Shown: one piece after another, positions 13,750 to 23,873 of the stretch
How the letters are laid out: every line of letters begins with the position of its first letter
Numbering within the stretch: position 1 is the stretch's first letter
Source: Hyaloraphidium curvatum
Taxonomy: Eukaryota > Monoblepharomycota > Hyaloraphidiomycetes > Hyaloraphidiales > Hyaloraphidiaceae
Length of the DNA: 64,000 nt
Direction of reading: 5' to 3'
Assembly (NCBI GenBank): GCA_025558095.1
Contig: JAIVFI010000002.1
Span: 930,001 to 994,000, forward strand
Made by a program: the position numbers and the translations under genes
The notes under the pieces: model-generated
The model's input: the letters and a program-made list of their open reading frames with translations, nothing else
Told to the model about the DNA's origin: nothing
Database searches by the model: none

Positions 13750-14685
13750 ATGGAGGACCCGTTCTATGCGGTGCGCGACGACCTCTCCGCGGCTTTGGCG
13801 GGCGCGCGCTCGCAGCTTGCGCGGTGGCGGGGGCTCGCGCGGACTGCGGGGAAGGACGCGGCGCGCGCGGCGGCCGAGCTGCGGGCGGCGCTGGCCGACA
13901 TCGACGCCGACGTGGCCGAGCTCGAGCAGGCCGTGGCGGTGGCCGCGCGGGACCCGGCGCGCTTCCGGCTGGCCGCGGCGGAGGTCGCCGGGCGGAGGGA
14001 GTTTGTCGCCGCCGCGCGCAAGGAGGCCGCCGCGCTGAGGGCCGCGCTGGCCGACGAGGAGGGCGCCGCGCAGGCTGCGCAGCGGGACATGCTGCTGGCC
14101 GGCGGCGCAAAGGGCGGCCAGGGGGCGGCAGGGGGGAGCTCCGACCGGACTGCGCGGCCCCCGCGGGCACCAAACGGGACACCGCTGCCCGCCGACGGCA
14201 GATCGCCGGCATCTCTTCCTTCCTCGGGTTCCCCCGCACCGGCGGGCTCCCCCCCTGGCCCCTCCGTGGGCGCCCCACCCCCCCGGACAAAGCCCGCCGG
14301 CGCACCCCGCCCGGGCACGCCCAGCGGCCAGGCCGGCCGCTCCTCGACCCCCGACACGGGGGACCGCCCGCGCGACCGCTTCGCCGAGAACGAGCAGATG
14401 CAGCAGCAGGTCATCATGCGCGAGCAGGACCGCGAGCTGGACCAGGTCGCGCACACGGTGCGCAACCTGCGCGAGATCGCAGTGACCATCGGCGACGAGG
14501 TCGAGGACCAGAAGGTGCTGCTGGACGACGTCGACGAGCGCGTCGACAGGACGCAGGGGAGGATGCAGCTCGCGCAGAAGCGCATGAACGCCGTGCTGGC
14601 CGAGCTGCGCAAGGGCGGGACCTGCACCATCGTGTGCCTCATCACCGTGCTGCTGATCCTGCTGGTCGTCGTGATCGTCATCTAG
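13750..14685 (+). CDS. Syntaxin-6/10/Tlg1-type Qc-SNARE
   Basis: Tail-anchored SNARE of the trans-Golgi network and endosomes. A single open frame encodes 311 residues. The N-terminus DPFYAVRDDLSAAL is the hallmark of the syntaxin-6 N-domain, a three-helix bundle. A long Pro/Ser/Gly linker follows (about residues 125-205). The SNARE motif includes MREQDRELDQVAHTVRNL, IGDEVEDQKVLLDDVDERVD and MQLAQKRMNAVL, with the central-layer Gln in EDQKVLLD. The C-terminal anchor is IVCLITVLLILLVVVIVI. No intron is needed, though one in the linker cannot be excluded. Confidence 0.9.
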   Translation: MEDPFYAVRDDLSAALAGARSQLARWRGLARTAGKDAARAAAELRAALADIDADVAELEQAVAVAARDPARFRLAAAEVAGRREFVAAARKEAAALRAALADEEGAAQAAQRDMLLAGGAKGGQGAAGGSSDRTARPPRAPNGTPLPADGRSPASLPSSGSPAPAGSPPGPSVGAPPPRTKPAGAPRPGTPSGQAGRSSTPDTGDRPRDRFAENEQMQQQVIMREQDRELDQVAHTVRNLREIAVTIGDEVEDQKVLLDDVDERVDRTQGRMQLAQKRMNAVLAELRKGGTCTIVCLITVLLILLVVVIVI

Positions 14686-15319
14686 GCGTGTACTCCTCGC
14701 GGTGAAACGGAGGGGTCTCACCCCGTTGCTGCGTGTTGCTGAGCATGTGAAGCAGCATCCCTTTTCTCTTCTACAAACGCGCTCCTAGGGAGAACGCACA
14801 GTCGTTGATGAAGCGGACTAGGACATTGCAGTTTGTAGTCGAGATGCAGGCCGGCGATGCAAGGGTGGATGGGAGCCGTCTCGCTCGGTAAAGGACTTAC
14901 TACTCTAGGCCTGAGGTGCCAAGCGCGGCGGTTCGGACACACGGGAGCTGTCTCTGCGTTATTCAGACGTGCGTATCGACTGCCGGTGTGTTTTCCACGG
15001 TTGCGCCGGGGCGTTGGCTTCGGCGCCGAGCCGGGGTCGCGGGATTGCCGGGTCCGCTTTCCGGCCCCGTCGACACCCCGGCGGCACACCAACGGCGCCT
15101 TGGGAGCTCTCCTTCGTTGGTGGGCCTTGGTGGACGCGTGATGGCCGGTAGTTGCGTCCGGCGCGGCGTCACCGGCGGTGCTCCGGCCCCGGCCCGAGCT
15201 CCGGCGTTTAGATCGGCTTCGAGCGCGCTCACACGCTCCGCCCCCCGCAGGTTCTCTCGCGAGCGGCAGCAGCTTTCTTGTCAAGTACTCGTACCGCCCC
15301 CCTCGAGCTCGCCGGCAAG
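14686..15319. other. Intergenic stretch upstream of the XPG-Fanzor-like gene
   Basis: This holds the SNARE 3'UTR and the promoter of the giant gene. Several short frames occur, none recognisable. I saw no terminal inverted repeat or obvious target-site duplication matching sequence beyond 23535, but an exhaustive search by eye is not possible. Confidence 0.4.
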
Positions 15320-18300
15320 ATGCCGTCGATGCGCCGCGGGGGGCCGGGCCACGGCGCGCGGCGGCAGTACGACCCGGACGGGCGAGGGACGAAGAGCGGC
15401 AAGAGATATCTCGGCGACAAGATCAAAGAGCACTGGCAAAATGCCCAACAGGGCCTCTCGATGTTCAACGCCATTCGGACCTTTTCGGAGGGGCGACTGT
15501 TCGTGCTCGACTCCGGCGTGCTCATTGTCGACTTTTCGTGGATAGTGCATCGGGTGGCGCCCATGTTCGCTTGGGAGCTGGTTCAATTGGCTTTCGGCGA
15601 CGAGAACCTGGATCCTCTGAGCGCTGCGCAGGCCGAGGAAATCTTCACCAAGTTGGCCACGGGGCTGATGCGCGAGATCTGGAAGGCCCTGGCGCCCACG
15701 AACAGGCCGCTGCCGACGGGCTACCGGGTTGTCATCATCCACGAACTGACGGCGGAATCGGCCAAGGAACTGCTGCGCAAGGAGGGTCCGGGGGTGTCGT
15801 TGCCCGAGACAACGGCGGAGCTGGACGAGTTGCTCAGCCGCCATGGAGACTCGTGCCCGCTCCGTCCTCTTCCCTTGCTGGTTCCTGGCTATCAAGGAGG
15901 CGCAGCGGTTGCGGCGCTTGGTTCCGCCGTGCCGACGAACGGGGATGCTGCACCAGCGGAAGCCGCAAACTTCAACTTTCTGAGGAAGACCGACGTCGAA
16001 CGGGAAAGCCGGACTCGGTCTTCGGCGTCCGCGGCGTCCAAGGGCATCAAGCGCGTGCTGGTGGTTCACGGTGATGGGTTCAAGCGCACCAACAAAGTCG
16101 TCGATCCGCGGAGTAAGTGCGTCGACACGCATCTCTACACTGCGGCTGACGGGCATTGCGACAGAGCTTCCCGGTGCGCCACAGGCCGCGACAAACGTCC
16201 TTCTGTCGGACCCCATGTTCAAACTTTGCCTGTTCAGGGCGACCCAGAAGGTATTCGAGACTCCCGATATGAAGGACAAGCTGCCCGCCGTCGTCTCGCA
16301 CATTGTCGTCGGCGAGTTCGACCCGGCGGCCTTTGCCTACGGTGGGTTTCACGCCGCGACGTCGCCTGCGGTTTGGCGCCTTGTTCTGATGACTCCCGAA
16401 ACAGCGCGAAATGTCAAGGCGGAACGCGCTCCCAACGCCCGACCAACATTTGTCGGTGTCCTGACCGTCGATACCGACTTTTCCGCTTTCAACGTCGGCA
16501 GGTACATGGACGCCATGCTCGACGGCATCGGCAAGCAGAAGCGGCTCCTGCCGCTCGACAGGGTCAACCAGCTCTTTGGCGGCGGCTGCTCGCCGCTGGT
16601 CATCGCGTTCGCGGTGGCCGTCGGCGGCACCGACAACACTCTGCGTTACGGAATGGTGGGTGATGGTTTCGATGGCTTGCCGCCAAGACTGCGCTGACTT
16701 GCAGATCCAGGGTCCGAAGGCCGTGATCGACCTGCTAGACCAGCTCGGCCTTCGCAAGGACTACACGGAACGGGTGCCGGGCCAAGGCCCGCAAGAACTG
16801 CTCGACGCCCTCCCACGCGGGCCGCAGGTACCTGAAGAAGCATGTTGTCGAGTTTCTCGAGAAGGATGGGCAGGACATCGTCAAGGCCATCAATGCGTTC
16901 CAGAACCTGTCAGCAAATGGACATTGGCACCTGCCCACGCTCGAGATCGCCGCCGACCAGCTCAAACAGGATCCCTTTGCCGGCTTTGCCGGCAAGGGAA
17001 CGCTTGTCGGGGCTCATTTGGCAGCATGGGACGAGGAGCGCCACAGGCTTCGGAGGCCGAAGCTTCAACTTCGCTTCAAGGAGGTTGGTCGCTTCATTCC
17101 CCGCGATGCTGCGACTGGTCGGCCGATTTCTGACCTCGCTCGCGCAGATGAAGGACAATATAGGGAAGTTTCGTCGGGGTGAGCTGCCTCCCAAGGTCGA
17201 GCCGGATCGGGGAAACTACCCGCTCCGATGGTTGCGGGAGGTCAGGTTCAAGGCCGAGCGGCGGGAGCGGAGCGAGAAGGAGAAGAACAACAAGTACTTG
17301 AGACTTTACGGCGAGGAGAAGAAGGCCCAGGGCAAGAAGGTCGCCGCCGAGCAGGGCGTCGCCGAGCAGCAGGTCGCAGCCGAGAAGGTCGAGGTCGAGA
17401 AGTTTGAGGTCAAGACCGGCATCGAGAAGGTCGGGAACGGCAAAGAGGGCGGCGGCAGTGCGGGCCGGACGCGGGGCGACGGCGTCGCGCAGAACCCCGA
17501 CACCGGACTGTTTGAGCAGCTTTGGTTTGCAGCTTTTGCCAACCCTCATTTGCACCCCGCGCAGCCGGCGGAGAAGCTCGACGGCGACGAGGACGACGAC
17601 CGCTACGGCGACGACGTCAGTGTCACCGAAGGCGGCTCGCCTCGCTCGTCCTCTTCGGCATCTTCGTCTTCCTCCTCGCAGGCCGAGCCCCGGTTCGTGC
17701 CGAATCCCGGCGGTGTTGTTCCCCGCACCCTTTCGCAGCTGCCTCAGATCCCGGAGGAGCAAGGCATGGAGCAGCCCCGCGTGCTGACGGCGTCCCCCGA
17801 GCCGATGGAGGGCGTCGAAGAGTCCGACGTCGCGTCGTCGGCGGCGGGTTTTGGTGCGTCTGTCGCCGGAGAGAGCAAGGTGCGCTCGCCCGCTAAGCGC
17901 CTGAGCTCTGCCGGCTCCGATCTTGCTGGCGACGAGGGAGAAGGCGACGAGCACTCCGAGGGACCCGCGCCCAAGATCCGTACTCGTGGTGGCAAAGTTG
18001 CGAGCAGCGAGCGCTCCGCGTCGGTGGGCTCGGACAGAGGTTCCGGGGGGTCGAGATCCGGCGGGGACGGCTCGGACTCCGGCTCGGGTCGGGCGTCGCC
18101 GAGTTCGTCGCGGGGCAGGTCACCGGCGCCCTCGCGCAAGGGTGGTCGTGGTCGCGGTCGCGGTCGCGGTCGGGGTGCAAAGGCAGCGACTGCGGCAGGG
18201 GCTGGCCCGTCACCGGCAGCCGGCAAGGAGAAGGAGCCTGCTGCCGACCCGGCTGTTCAGCGTGCGCAGGATGTGGGGCGGGAGCTGCTGAAAGCAGTTG

Positions 18301-21300
18301 GCAAAATGTCTTTCAGGTAAGTCACGGTGCTATTCGGGAGTCATGGGAGCTGACCACGTACTAACTGCGATTGCAGCGGCCGGTTCCGCACCACGGGACC
18401 GCAGCAGGATGCGCTGTTTAGCTCCATCAAGGATGAACTGAATCAGGGGAATTACAAGAGCTTCCAGATGGTCGCCGAGGACATGGCCTGGGCCATCAAG
18501 AGCGGCGCCCGTGCGCGGGTCTTGGAGCTGGAAGAGCTGCTTGCGCGGGAGGGGTCCGAGGCAGAAATGAAAGCAGCGTGGGAGAAAGAGAAGAAGAACA
18601 TCAAGGCGGATGAGACGGTCATGATGGTGAGCTTGTCGAGGCTCGCGCTTGCGGACAGCACTGACACTTGTTCTCGTGCAGACAACCCTGCACCGAGTGT
18701 ACGACGATCTTGTCGAGCGACGTCGGCAGGCCGAGATCGAGCGTCAGGCGCCGGGCTCCAGCAGCTCGAAGAAGCCTAAGAAGAAGGGCATGGAGCACTC
18801 AGAGAACACCCTGAACAAGCGCTGCTTCTCCGCCATGAACGCGATCAAGAGCCGCCGCGGCCCAACGCTCGAGAATGCCATGAACCAGTACCGCATGACC
18901 TTCAACCGGGCGGCGAATCAAGTACTTGAAGCGCAAAAAGGTCTCTTTTACCCGGAGCTCCAGGTCGAGGCGATCTTCAACGAGGTCTTTGAGCTCATCG
19001 GGGACCAATTGGTCGGACCAGCCGAGCCCCGCCCGGCTCGCGACACGCCGGAGTGGAATGGTCGTCTCGAGGAGTTCCGTGCCGCGCTCGATGGAAGCAA
19101 TGCATTCGCTGTGTCAGGTGCTTCGTTTGTCGCCGAAGCGATCAAGACGATTGCTTCGCTGAACGTGCTCAGCCGCGCTGCGGGCCACGCGGCATTGCAG
19201 GCCGCCGCTGTGGAGGGCTCACCGGCGCTGAACCAGTTCACGGACTCCCGCTTCGGCGTGCCTGCTCCCTCTGCACCCTCTTCGCGCCCTGTGCGCGCTC
19301 GTCCTTCGAGCGGGAGTTCTGCAGACATTCCGGCTGGCGCTGGCCCGATCAAGGTCTCTTCCAAGGAGCCTTTGGCCGAGGATGACGGCGCTTTGGCTCT
19401 GTATGCGCACGCCCACCAGGCCGTCGTCACCGAGGCGCGAGCGACAGTCCAGCCAGATGATCGGACCGCCGTACAGTACAAGGCCGTGTTCAACCTGTTG
19501 AGGAGTGGACAAATTATGGAGCAAACCAGCTTCCGCCCCGGTACCAAGGAAGCGATGAAGTATTGGACCGTCTGCAGGTTCTCCCCTTTGGATCCCCCGT
19601 TCAAGCGGGAGGCCTTACTGGCCTTGGAGCCTCCGATCGAGGCGGCCGGGGCTGGACAAGAAGCGAACGCCGAGACGGTGGCCGAACAGCCGGATGAGAC
19701 GGTGGCGCCGGCCGAGCCTGCGGACGTGCCAATGGAGCCGGCGGACCCGGCCGCTCGGTTGCCCGCGGGGCAGCCGTTCCACGGCATCACGGCGGCGCAG
19801 TTCGAGGAACAGACCGCGGTAGTTCAGCCGGGCTGGAGGAAGGCGCTGGCAACCACGACCTCGACGGATCTCATCTGCACGCGAGCGCGGCCATCGAGCT
19901 CACGCAGTGGTCCTGCGTGGCGCTGGTTCCTCACCCTGACGGTAGCGGCCGCCTCCTCCTCGCGATGAAGTCGCCGCACCCCATCTTCTCCGTCTCGTCG
20001 ACCGGTGTCGCCGTTGACAGCCCACTCGTCTTTGCCGCGCAGCTCCTTTTGCCCCTGCTCCTGCGCCGCATGACCAAGCTGCGCGCTGGCGACGAGCTCT
20101 TCGACCAGCACTCGGACTGGACCGGCGGAGTCCCGCCACAACTCGCTGGCTACGCCCGCGCGGCCCTCCAGCCCGCGATCAGGCGGGCGATGGAGCTCCT
20201 CGCCGAAGGCGGCTTCGACGTCATGCTCCGCGGACGGCTGCAAGGCGATGGCCTCAACAGCGCGGCGGCGTTCGAGAAGGAGGAGGACGAGCTGTCGGCC
20301 CCACGGGTGCGCAGCTCCGTGCCGTCGTCCATGATCGCGCCCGAAACCAGCGTCAAGGCCATCGCGCCGGTGCTGGGGACGAGAACGCTCGCCACCTTCC
20401 TGGACCGCGAAATGCTGCCGGTTTCCCGCCTGCTCCCGGAACGCGTGAAGGATTCCCTGGACATCAAGGCCGACGCCGCTTTGCAAGGCCAGCTCGTTCG
20501 GATCGCGACGGAAGGCAACGACGCCAACGCCATTCCCGACAAGCTGCGCAAGAGCGCGCGTGGCTTGTTGGCGCGGACGGCGCGTGGCAAGTCGGGCAAG
20601 GCACAGGTGCTGAAGGCCGCGCGCGGGGACGGTGAAGAGGACGAGGACGGTGACCTGGACGATTCAGGGGACGAAGAAGACGACAGCGAGGAACCTGGCG
20701 AGGAGCCGGCTGCAGGAAGCGCGCTGGAGAGAGTTCGCACGTGGTCTACACGGTGGCGAGATACCATCGCCAAGCGGCAGTGGTCGGCAGCTCGCAAGGC
20801 GGCCTCGGAAGCTCTCCTTGCGGCTCTGGACACCTTGTTTGCCAACAGCACCGAGGAGGCTGATGTTCAGCTCGCTGTTTTGGACCTCTTGAACCTGGAC
20901 GACGACGTGCAAAGGCTCTTTCTATCTGGCAACTGGACGCAGGCCGCTCTCAACTCGGCCGCAACCGCAGCACGATTCGCCATCGAGACTCTACCCGAGT
21001 TTCGTGCTCTCGTTCCTGTTCCCTCGGCACGCGCAATCTCCATCCCCATCACCGGGACCCTTGCGGCGCGCCTCTTGGTCTCCTGGATCAGGACCTGCAC
21101 CTCGGAGACCAGGGTCGCGGTGGCGAAAAACTTGTCAGCAACGCTGTTCGGGATGCAGCAGCGGGGAACAGTTAAGCCCCAGGATGCGGCCGACATCAGG
21201 GCGATCATCGCGAAAATCGAGCTCGGGTCGGACATCGCCGCCACATCCTTTGCCCCTCACCTCCTCTTTGCATTCGAGGCGCTCTTTGCCGGACTTCCTC

Positions 21301-23535
21301 CTCTCGATCCGCGACCACGAGTGGTTCAACGCGGCGATCGAACTCTTCAGCTCCCTCCGCAATTGATCCCCAGGCCGTTCCTCCAGACCAACGGCTACTC
21401 AACCGTTCCTCTCGGAACCGTTCCGGCTCACCACACCGCGCGCAAGACTGGCAGCGCCGCCGTCACCAAGTATGGAGCCGAGGTCCTCGGCGTCAACTCG
21501 TCCCGCGGCGAGAACATCATCATGGTGAGCCAATTGCCTGGGCCACCTGACAGCGAGCCATCTTCTGACTTGCTGGCACCTGCAGCGCTCCCGTACGCGC
21601 CGCGATTACACTCTGCCGGAGCAACCCGCCGCCGCCGTCGACGTCGCCCCTCTCCCCGCTCAACGGGCCGGAACGGCTCAGCTGATGGACACGGAGACTA
21701 CCGACGACGCCATGAACACGGACGTGGATTTGCTCGAGGCGCCTCAGCAGGAATTCGGGGTCCAGTTGCGGCCCGACGTGGAGGACCTGGAAATGTCAGA
21801 GGCACTACGGGAGGGCTCTACCTCCGAGGAACGCCCAGCCGTGGAGCCTGCCGCCGCCGCGGAGCCTGCCGCCGCCGCGGACGGAAGTCAGCTGCGCCCT
21901 ACCTCCTCGCTGCCCTACCTGCGTGCTCTGCAGCTGCACATTGGAGGGCGTCCGGATCCTCTTCATGCCGAGGGCATCGAGCCGCTACTGCCTCGGGATG
22001 CTCCCGCTGCGGCCGCTGCTCCGCCACCGGGATCGTCGTCGGACTCTTCCCCCACGGCTCCGCCAGCCCCGATCGACGAGGACCTGATCTTCGGCCCGGA
22101 CATGAGCGACACCAGCATCGACATGCTGAGGCATCTGCTTGGCAAGTGCTCGTTCGGAGCCGGTGCCTCCCGCACCGACGGCGCCTTCCGCGGCTGCATC
22201 CCGGAGGCCGCCTTCACCGTCCACCCTGCCAACCCGGCTTTCTCGACGCAATCGTTTGTGATGAAGCAGGGCGGACCCCGCTGCTTCGTCCCGCTCATGT
22301 TCCGGACCGCGGACCCGGACTACGCCCGCTCCGTCATGCTCAACGTACCCTTTGTGTGTCTCGACGTCGGCGACAAGATCACCGCCATCTCGGTGCTCAT
22401 GGCCTACGTAAAGCCGGACGACTCGATCGGCGTCGCTATCACGCGCTTCCACGTCAAGAACACGACGGACAAGGCGAAGCACGAGTCGGCACGAGCGGCT
22501 GCCGAGGCGCAGAAGGACGACAAGTACCGCGCCGACTTCCAGTCCTACACGTCTGGCGCCGGCAAGGCCCGGACCTGGAGCAAGTTCGAGTTCGACGCGT
22601 ACACCCAGAACCTCCTCGACACAGCCGGCCCGATCTTCGACCAGTCGTACAGCCGCGAGTCGCTCAAAGCCACCGAGACCCTCAACCGCGAAAAGGACTC
22701 GCACCTATACAAGATCCTCAACGATATGCTGTTCGCGGTCGATCGCACCCAGCTCATGGTGACCCAGATCCAGGCCAGCTACGCCGCGGCGAAAGAGTGG
22801 GAGAAGCTGCAGAAGCCTGCGGCAGAGGAGCCACGGCAAGACGGGGAGCCGCAGCACTCGCCTGCCGAGGCCGAACACGCGCAGGCGGCTACGATTGCGG
22901 AGGAGCTGATGGAGGCGATGGCGCCGGAGATGGAGCGGGTGCTCGACGAGGCTGATCGCGCAGCAGGGGCAGAACAGGCGGCCGCAGAGGAGCAGGCACA
23001 GCAAGGCGGACCAGCAGCTGACGGGCAGCACGAGGAGGACAAGGAGCGCGCGCGGCGCGAGCAGCGCAACGCCTTCATCGCCGGCAAGGTCAAGGAGGCG
23101 GTCGAGAGCCTCAGGGCTGAGCTTGCCGACGGCCGCAAGGAGCACTACAACCCGATCGTGATCATCGGCGACGGCGGCCATGGCGGGCGAACCCCGGATC
23201 CTGACTCCCTCGCCGGGTTCCTGATGCGGCTGTTCCTCGTGATCTTGCTCATTGAGTGGGGCACTTCTCAGGTAGGCTGGAGCGTTCTGCACCTGCGTGA
23301 CTTTGGCTGACGCATCTCCCAGCGCTGCCCTTCGTGCTATTCGAAGCTGCTCCCTACGAAGGACCTCCACATCAAGGACTGTCCCTCGTGCCCCGGACAC
23401 GACGGCACCGGCATGCTTCGGGTGGAGAAGAACGTTTCCGCGACTCTCTGCTTTTATCGAATCTTTCTTCACATCCTGGCAACGGGCACGCGGCCTCCGG
23501 CCTTCCGTGACCCGACTGCCAAACTCACTACCTGA
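15320..23535 (+). CDS. Gi­ant XPG/FEN-like nuclease fused to Fanzor/TnpB-like RuvC + Zn-ribbon domain
   Basis: Ten exons read through without interruption: 15320..16112, 16165..16655, 16705..16773, 16838..17083, 17148..18316, 18377..18626, 18682..19757, 19823..21524, 21586..23271 and 23323..23535 (2,564 residues). The junctions near 16774-16837 and 19758-19822 are tentative. The N-terminus looks like a FEN1/XPG PIN fold: LIVDFSWIVHRV (Asp71), VVGEFDPAAFAYGG, VLTVDTDFSAFN (Asp367, Asp369), VGGTDN (Asp421) and an H3TH-like IQGPKAVIDLL. A middle region of about 1,700 residues holds a Lys/Glu coiled coil, an RG repeat and acidic tracts; I recognise nothing there. The C-terminus looks TnpB/Fanzor-like: RuvC-I VCLDVGDKITAI (Asp2192), IVIIGDGGHGG, then IEWGTSQRCPSC...DCPSC (zinc ribbon) and KNVSATLCFYRIF. 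It could be a mobile-element protein or a domesticated nuclease. Both domain calls are motif-based and need a structure-aware search. Confidence 0.6.
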
Positions 23536-23873
23536 CAAACGAACCAGGTACTTTAGCTGAATGCGTGAGTGCACTGTGGTCGTGCATCGTGGATAGTTTA
23601 CTCATGCGATAAGCTGTTTCGTGGAATTGGTGTTATCCTTTGCGTTTTGGTGGCGGTTCCCGGATTCCAGAGCAGCAGCATCCGTGTATTTAGGGGTCCG
23701 ACGCTGGGCCAAACAGTCGTCCCCGAATCCAGCCCTCCCGAGTCCCCCCGCGCCGCATCGCCGGCGCACACCCGGCGGTCCGCAGCAGCACCGAGGGCTT
23801 GTCTCCGTTCGTCGGGGCGGCGGCGCACCAGCGGGACCCAGTGTTGCCGGAACCCGCCCGCCGCGCGCCGACG
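23536..23873. other. Short intergenic stretch, no gene recognised
   Basis: This is the 3' flank of the giant gene and the upstream region of the RhoGEF gene. Nothing recognisable is seen on either strand. Confidence 0.35.

Follow-up and report, generated by a model that had tools for sequence, protein, structure and literature searches.

A predicted mobile-element protein of Hyaloraphidium curvatum joining a FEN/XPG-like domain to a Fanzor1-like module

Fanzors are RNA-guided DNA nucleases of eukaryotes, relatives of TnpB and cousins of the CRISPR enzymes. Among their hallmarks are a DPG motif and an alternative Glu in the RuvC domain, and their WED domain carries a TDG motif (PMC10711439). 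In Chlamydomonas, Fanzor1 genes travel in Helitron-type elements, and in these non-autonomous Helitrons (CRe-1/2/3) the 3' ends are intact and the 5' ends truncated, parts of the interior are deleted, additional sequence lies at the 5' junction and the duplications measure 7-19 bp (PMC3627910). Here we analyse a 64-kb window of the 31.9 Mb genome of Hyaloraphidium curvatum (C2:930001-994000, where C-numbers denote contigs of this genome), in which a gene at 15320-23535 on the plus strand, carried by a mobile element, is predicted to join an N-terminal domain like that of the FEN/XPG 5' nucleases to a C-terminal Fanzor1-like module. The original prediction for this DNA held that no described protein is known to have both parts, and no such fusion was found in open-access papers: none contains both 'Fanzor' and 'XPG', in a search confined to a limited literature, and the combination of 'FEN1' or 'flap endonuclease' with Fanzor retrieved one review and one preprint, neither of which describes a fusion. 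The only text found pairing both terms is a single sentence on viral contigs that names 'Fanzor flap endonuclease homologs (Fendons)' (PMC11071296); that sentence gives no domain description and may not mean a fusion. Profiles of both domains found no relatives in viral contigs, and phage records gave none.

The window gene can be read as ten GT-AG exons totalling 7,668 nt, in phase and without a stop, as originally predicted, although the frame has 2,556 codons rather than about 2,564; every motif named in that prediction was located. Exon 1 (15320-16112) begins the FEN-like domain and contains the VD of the first strand and a Glu at the place of D86, exon 2 (16165-16655) contains the motifs GEFD, VDTD and GGTD, and exon 3 (16705-16773) the H3TH-like QGPKAVIDLL. 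Exon 4 (16838-17083), whose acceptor was placed from the phase, is followed by a linker of low complexity in exon 5 (17148-18316), by exon 6 (18377-18626), by exon 7 (18682-19853, or to 19818 in the ten-exon reading) and by exon 8 (19854-21524, or from 19908 in the ten-exon reading), which has at its end a TNG motif resembling the Fanzor TDG. The RuvC-I motif LDVG, IIGDG and the alternative Glu in IEWGTSQ lie in exon 9 (21586-23271), and the zinc ribbon, EKNVSA at the RuvC-III place and an RPPAF tail in exon 10 (23323-23535, coding to 23532 with the stop at 23533-23535). All exons are on the plus strand.

The same arrangement recurs in diverged relatives. With a C-terminal piece as query, relatives were found in the genome on C14, C5 (742 kb), C8 (332 kb), C31, C8 (89 kb), C15 and C17; tblastx between loci was swamped by wrong-frame GC-rich matches. 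The FEN-like N terminus was read in the window, C14, two C8 genes and a gene at C5:336 kb, leaving out the N termini on C31, C15 and C17. On C14, a gene model with seven introns stays open over 2,378 codons between the FEN-like start and the end, and both C8 loci share its spacing of about 7 kb from the FEN-like part to the downstream RuvC. A second, less derived fusion is predicted at C5:336 kb, where a TNB-bearing gene with a zinc ribbon (PF07282, 32.6 bits; Pfam cut-off 26.3) has a FEN-like part upstream; here the one-gene reading is a model with three introns, two of them uncertain. The fusion is read collinearly in at least two diverged subfamilies (the window gene, the C14 and two C8 genes, and the C5 gene). 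The ordered set of acidic residues is matched by 0.9% of shuffles, under a loose pattern written with the window protein in view, and coincidence is ruled out because the same motif order recurs, collinear, in diverged paralogues. As far as sequence can tell, the fusion of FEN-like and Fanzor-like parts is real. Moreover, the ratio of nonsynonymous to synonymous substitution rates (dN/dS) is 0.02-0.20 in recent pairs of the C14/C8 type (C14/C5, C8/C31 and C8/C17, using mostly C-terminal exons), and thus the coding sequence in these types is under selection.

The N-terminal domain resembles FEN1, XPG, EXO1 and GEN1 and the asteroid-type (XPG_I_2) nucleases in the order of its acidic motifs. Across the window and C14/C8 types, the first-strand VD is present in all, followed by a Glu at the D86 place, E-x-D and D-x-D; measured against the ordered acids D34, D86, E158/E160, D179/D181 and D233, the window protein has Glu in place of D86 and Asp in place of E160; at the D233 place the window keeps Asp and the C14/C8 types have His. 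The C5:336 kb gene has the full ordered set, in the canonical motifs MGIAGSFKGL...VVVDALAVFY...VFAFDGKRSLEKK...NAESDPELARRA...IISTDSDYL...LLAFLGNDY. For its FEN domain, the alignment with XPG-type genes of the host is in register (P 0.0063), as is that of the C14/C8 domain profile with this C5 domain (P 0.0074), and a further in-register hhalign comparison gave P 0.026 for the FEN/XPG profile match. XRN was considered as a closer relative of the domain and rejected by sequence comparison (P 0.54 against host XRN). Unlike FEN1, XPG, EXO1 and GEN1, the domain is fused to a Fanzor module, has Glu at the D86 place in the window and C14/C8 types and His at the D233 place in the C14/C8 types, and its H3TH motif is weak. 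Profile searches and structure prediction had been proposed as checks, and both gave divided answers. XPG_I_2 is the best Pfam match of the C5:336 kb domain, below cut-off (E 0.0093), no Pfam domain was found in single exons or in the spliced N terminus of the window gene, and a PDB sequence search with profiles of the N terminus, the C terminus and the C5 FEN domain returned nothing relevant. For a low-confidence structural model of the FEN-like part, the best VIA rows are nucleases, namely XRN2, Rat1, a plastid exonuclease and EXO1 (Z 4.6-5.2), with FEN1, XRN1 and GEN1 in lower rows. The N-terminal domain is probably FEN/XPG-like, a conclusion in which we have good but not complete confidence.

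In the C14 and C8 genes, the exon that carries the FEN-like domain also has, directly before this domain, ubiquitin-like stretches ending in RLRGG, RLPGG or RLLGG (L050:1789-2599, L069:295-1000 and L070:965-1270), for which the Pfam ubiquitin match is weak (E 0.059).

In profile comparisons, the C-terminal region matches Fanzor-like genes of this genome (L016, L018 and L019; E 2.3e-7) and the C5 fusion gene (E 4e-9). The RuvC-I Asp is present, in LDVG in the window and in VDPG or MDPG in the C14/C8 types, as is the alternative RuvC-II Glu before [TS][TS]xxC (IEWGTSQ, GEYFTSQ, GEHNTSQ and GEYTTSQ); the C4 zinc ribbon has its four Cys in all, and PF07282 scores above the Pfam cut-off in C5 and below it for C14/C8. 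At the RuvC-III place the window, C14, C8, C31, C15 and C17-type sequences read NKNRSA or EKNVSA; the Asp is kept in three non-fused genes (NRDINSA, NRDVNSA and NRDVMAA) and in the C5 fusion (HRDELSG). The strict motif of Bao and Jurka ends in RD, and by it the window clade is not a full member but a derived relative. It resembles Fanzor1 (PMC3627910, PMC10432273, PMC10711439) in the D-x-G motif (DPG in C14/C8), the Glu before TSQ, the C4 zinc ribbon, the transposon setting, an RNA-like element at the 3' end and the profile match to Fanzor-like genes of its own genome, and differs in its N-terminal FEN-like domain, in a protein of 2,400-2,900 residues (our estimate for the undeleted window type) and, for the window and C14/C8 types, in having Asn where Fanzor1 has the RuvC-III Asp.

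Some other loci of this genome were noted. A separate Fanzor1-like gene (L019, L073; C14:721-726 kb) has intact RuvC motifs and an N-terminal Cys/His-rich, zinc-knuckle-like region. Upstream of a non-fused Fanzor-like gene lies a long open reading frame (L072:312-2498, minus strand; C2:399-401 kb) that by eye is like an OTU protease (WGDHFALQ ... HYD) and has no Pfam match. Ten near-identical loci (L020-L029; C5:5540, C3:632898, C6:426117 and others) with the same weak partial PF07282 match in a 199-aa frame are probably a repeat family of another kind.

The fusion gene of the window lies within a mobile element at 14761-23673 on the plus strand (5' limit approximate, 3' limit 23668-23673). 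Copy number had been proposed as a check, and the locus is indeed repeated, with near-identical DNA on C13 (near full length), C30, C11 and C6. All copies share a 3' end at window position 23668 or at most 4 nt away, the 5' ends and internal parts vary among copies, with 5' truncation, and the 5' junctions have extra pyrimidine-rich sequence. In the window the element is flanked by a 10-bp direct repeat, AGCAGCATCC, at 14751-14760 and 23674-23683, probably the left and right target-site duplications; the flanking direct repeats are 16 bp (GTTCGATCGTATGTGT) for the C13 copy, 14 bp (GGAATCCGTCCCAT) for the C30 copy and 17 bp (GAGTAATTTCGTACGGA) for the C6 copy, and the C11 copy has no clear one. 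By eye, the copies show no terminal inverted repeats. Introns are retained, so that a spliced RNA intermediate is disfavoured. The intact 3' ends, 5' truncation, internal deletions, extra 5'-junction sequence and duplications (here 10-17 bp) follow the pattern of the CRe elements (PMC3627910), whereas no TTTT precedes the duplications here and no end shared with a Helitron was found, in a comparison that did not include the Helitron ends and in which the five copies of the element itself gave the only matches to its 3' end. Helitron_like_N domains score above cut-off at C2:541600, C35:92638 and C8:491059 and could belong to autonomous partners. At C30:186.5-190.9 kb, a minus-strand gene (MGRIPFLLQYPNVHRDFW..., by eye) has the element immediately upstream of its apparent start codon, and the 14-bp duplication of this copy covers that codon. 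Ordinary genes adjoin the window copy, with a syntaxin-6/10/61 gene ending at 14685 on one side and a RhoGEF domain at about 25.9 kb on the other.

The window copy itself has probably lost its function. The C13 copy is longer by 949 nt at window position 19853/19854; these nucleotides are coding, in phase on both sides and with one in-frame stop of their own, and the C30 copy keeps the final 193 nt of this segment at 94% identity. Because C13 has this segment and C30 a part of it, the window copy must have lost 949 nt, and the 89-nt stretch at 19819-19907 that the ten-exon reading treats as an intron is most likely not one, since the C13 copy, and C30 in part, has coding, in-phase sequence there. 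As 949 leaves a remainder of 1 on division by 3, the window frame is open only if 19819-19907 is read as an intron, as was presumably done in the original prediction, and this "intron" is almost certainly the scar of a coding deletion with its junction at 19853-19854. The open ten-exon frame thus stands as a reading, and its intron at this place most likely does not. Stops are also found in the C13 and C30 copies when read in the window's frame, and among these copies no intact one of the window subfamily was seen; dN/dS of the window copy against C13 and C30 is 0.38-1.25, which fits relaxed constraint in this subfamily. The original prediction offered either an RNA-guided nuclease that had acquired a structure-specific 5' nuclease or a mobile-element protein encoding both activities. 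These alternatives overlap, and the FEN/XPG-superfamily domain, its joining to a Fanzor/TnpB-like C terminus and carriage by a mobile element are upheld; a working nuclease encoded by this copy is not supported, given the frame-shifting deletion and a clade with Asn for the third RuvC aspartate, and the copy is probably defective.

A hairpin, TACCTG-10 nt-CAGGTA, lies across the stop codon (23529-23550, plus strand). A hairpin of 5-6 bp with a 10-nt A-rich loop occupies this position in all 12 of the sequences examined, with the stem TACCTG...CAGGTA for the window group and GCCGG...CCGGC for the C14/C8 group; in most of them CTGAATGNGTGAGT comes next. In eight aligned sequences (with the window group entered twice, the second row having one more base), all pairs are kept, two are changed on both sides, and sliding the partner abolishes the signal; these compensatory changes support a conserved hairpin, as a suggestion only. 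About 120 nt separate the hairpin from the 3' end of the element, a position at which a Fanzor guide RNA would be expected. The C6 copy, about 160 bp long, consists of the stretch from exactly this hairpin to the 3' end and closely resembles the stand-alone guide-RNA 'ghost' loci of Fanzors (PMC10432273). Both features are consistent with, but not proof of, a guide RNA. Rfam gave no match in 14700-23800, and folding of the 3' region as a whole was not significant (z-score -0.95).

The reading that we favour, with moderate confidence, is of a mobile-element protein in which a guide-RNA-binding Fanzor module has gained a FEN-type nuclease; guidance, RNA binding and both activities are what we infer here. 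A small mobile-element family would encode a FEN/XPG-superfamily 5'-nuclease domain, a long linker and a Fanzor1-like module. A guide-RNA-like transcript would start at the stop-codon hairpin and pass the 3' end into flanking DNA, and the Fanzor module would bind it and be directed to matching DNA, for example empty or donor sites, where the FEN-like domain might cut or trim branched or flapped intermediates. In the window and C14/C8 lineages the RuvC centre would be weakened, its Asp having become Asn, and the C5 lineage would keep it intact; the outcome would favour copying of the element through a one-ended, 3'-anchored mechanism. Several observations weigh against this. The fusion gene models were read from sequence alone, the third RuvC position is KN rather than RD in the window and C14/C8 types, and His occupies the last FEN metal site of the latter. 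In AlphaFold2 (AF2) predictions, the FEN-like part of a C8 gene, with an intron read through, reached a predicted local distance difference test score (pLDDT) of 47 and a predicted template modelling score (pTM) of 0.52, and Foldseek found no significant match for this model; the C-terminal model (pLDDT 47) is unusable, its VIA rows being mostly helices and coiled coils. Moreover, the hairpin covariation is essentially one contrast between two groups, and no transposase was identified with the element.

Some of these points suit a different role for a real fusion. With Asn at RuvC-III the Fanzor module would have ceased to be a guided nuclease and would serve as a platform that binds RNA or DNA, and the FEN-like domain, instead of cutting DNA, would mature the guide RNA or the messenger, working from the 5' end. 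The Asn at RuvC-III throughout the clade, the XRN-type RNA exonucleases at the top of the structural list for the low-confidence model and the RNA-like element at the end of the messenger make this possible, but FEN/XPG is favoured over XRN by sequence comparison and the alternative Glu, DxG and zinc ribbon are retained, and we consider it less likely. It is rather unlikely that both parts are ordinary DNA-processing domains serving transposition without a guide RNA, for example by trimming ends in the course of rolling-circle or one-ended transposition, with the hairpin as a terminal signal: a structured, fixed 3' end, 5' truncations, 10-17 bp duplications and Helitron genes in the genome would all fit, yet the hairpin sits on the stop codon, at the place expected of a Fanzor guide RNA, and the DPG and alternative-Glu motifs are retained in the C14/C8 types. 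That the gene is an artefact, a chance reading joining two unrelated genes or a pseudogene, might be suggested by the false intron bridging the deletion scar, the lack of Pfam domains in single exons and the shuffles that match the acid pattern, but is highly improbable and already contradicted because the paralogues share the fusion, four diverged ones having the same order, with an open C14 model and purifying selection.

Returning to the guide-directed protein with an added FEN-type nuclease, a further step is conceivable, in which this nuclease would have taken over DNA cleavage, the RuvC centre would be disarmed and the Fanzor module would serve guide-RNA-directed targeting only. Such an exchange is thinkable because the RuvC Asp has become Asn while a FEN-like centre is retained, but the C14/C8 types have His at the final FEN metal site, which calls for caution, and we consider such an exchange unlikely. 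If true, it would be a natural example of a guide-directed protein whose cutting domain has been exchanged. In any case, a selected lineage in which a second, structurally different nuclease accompanies a Fanzor with an altered RuvC may provide a direct way to learn whether the Fanzor's contribution is targeting or cutting.

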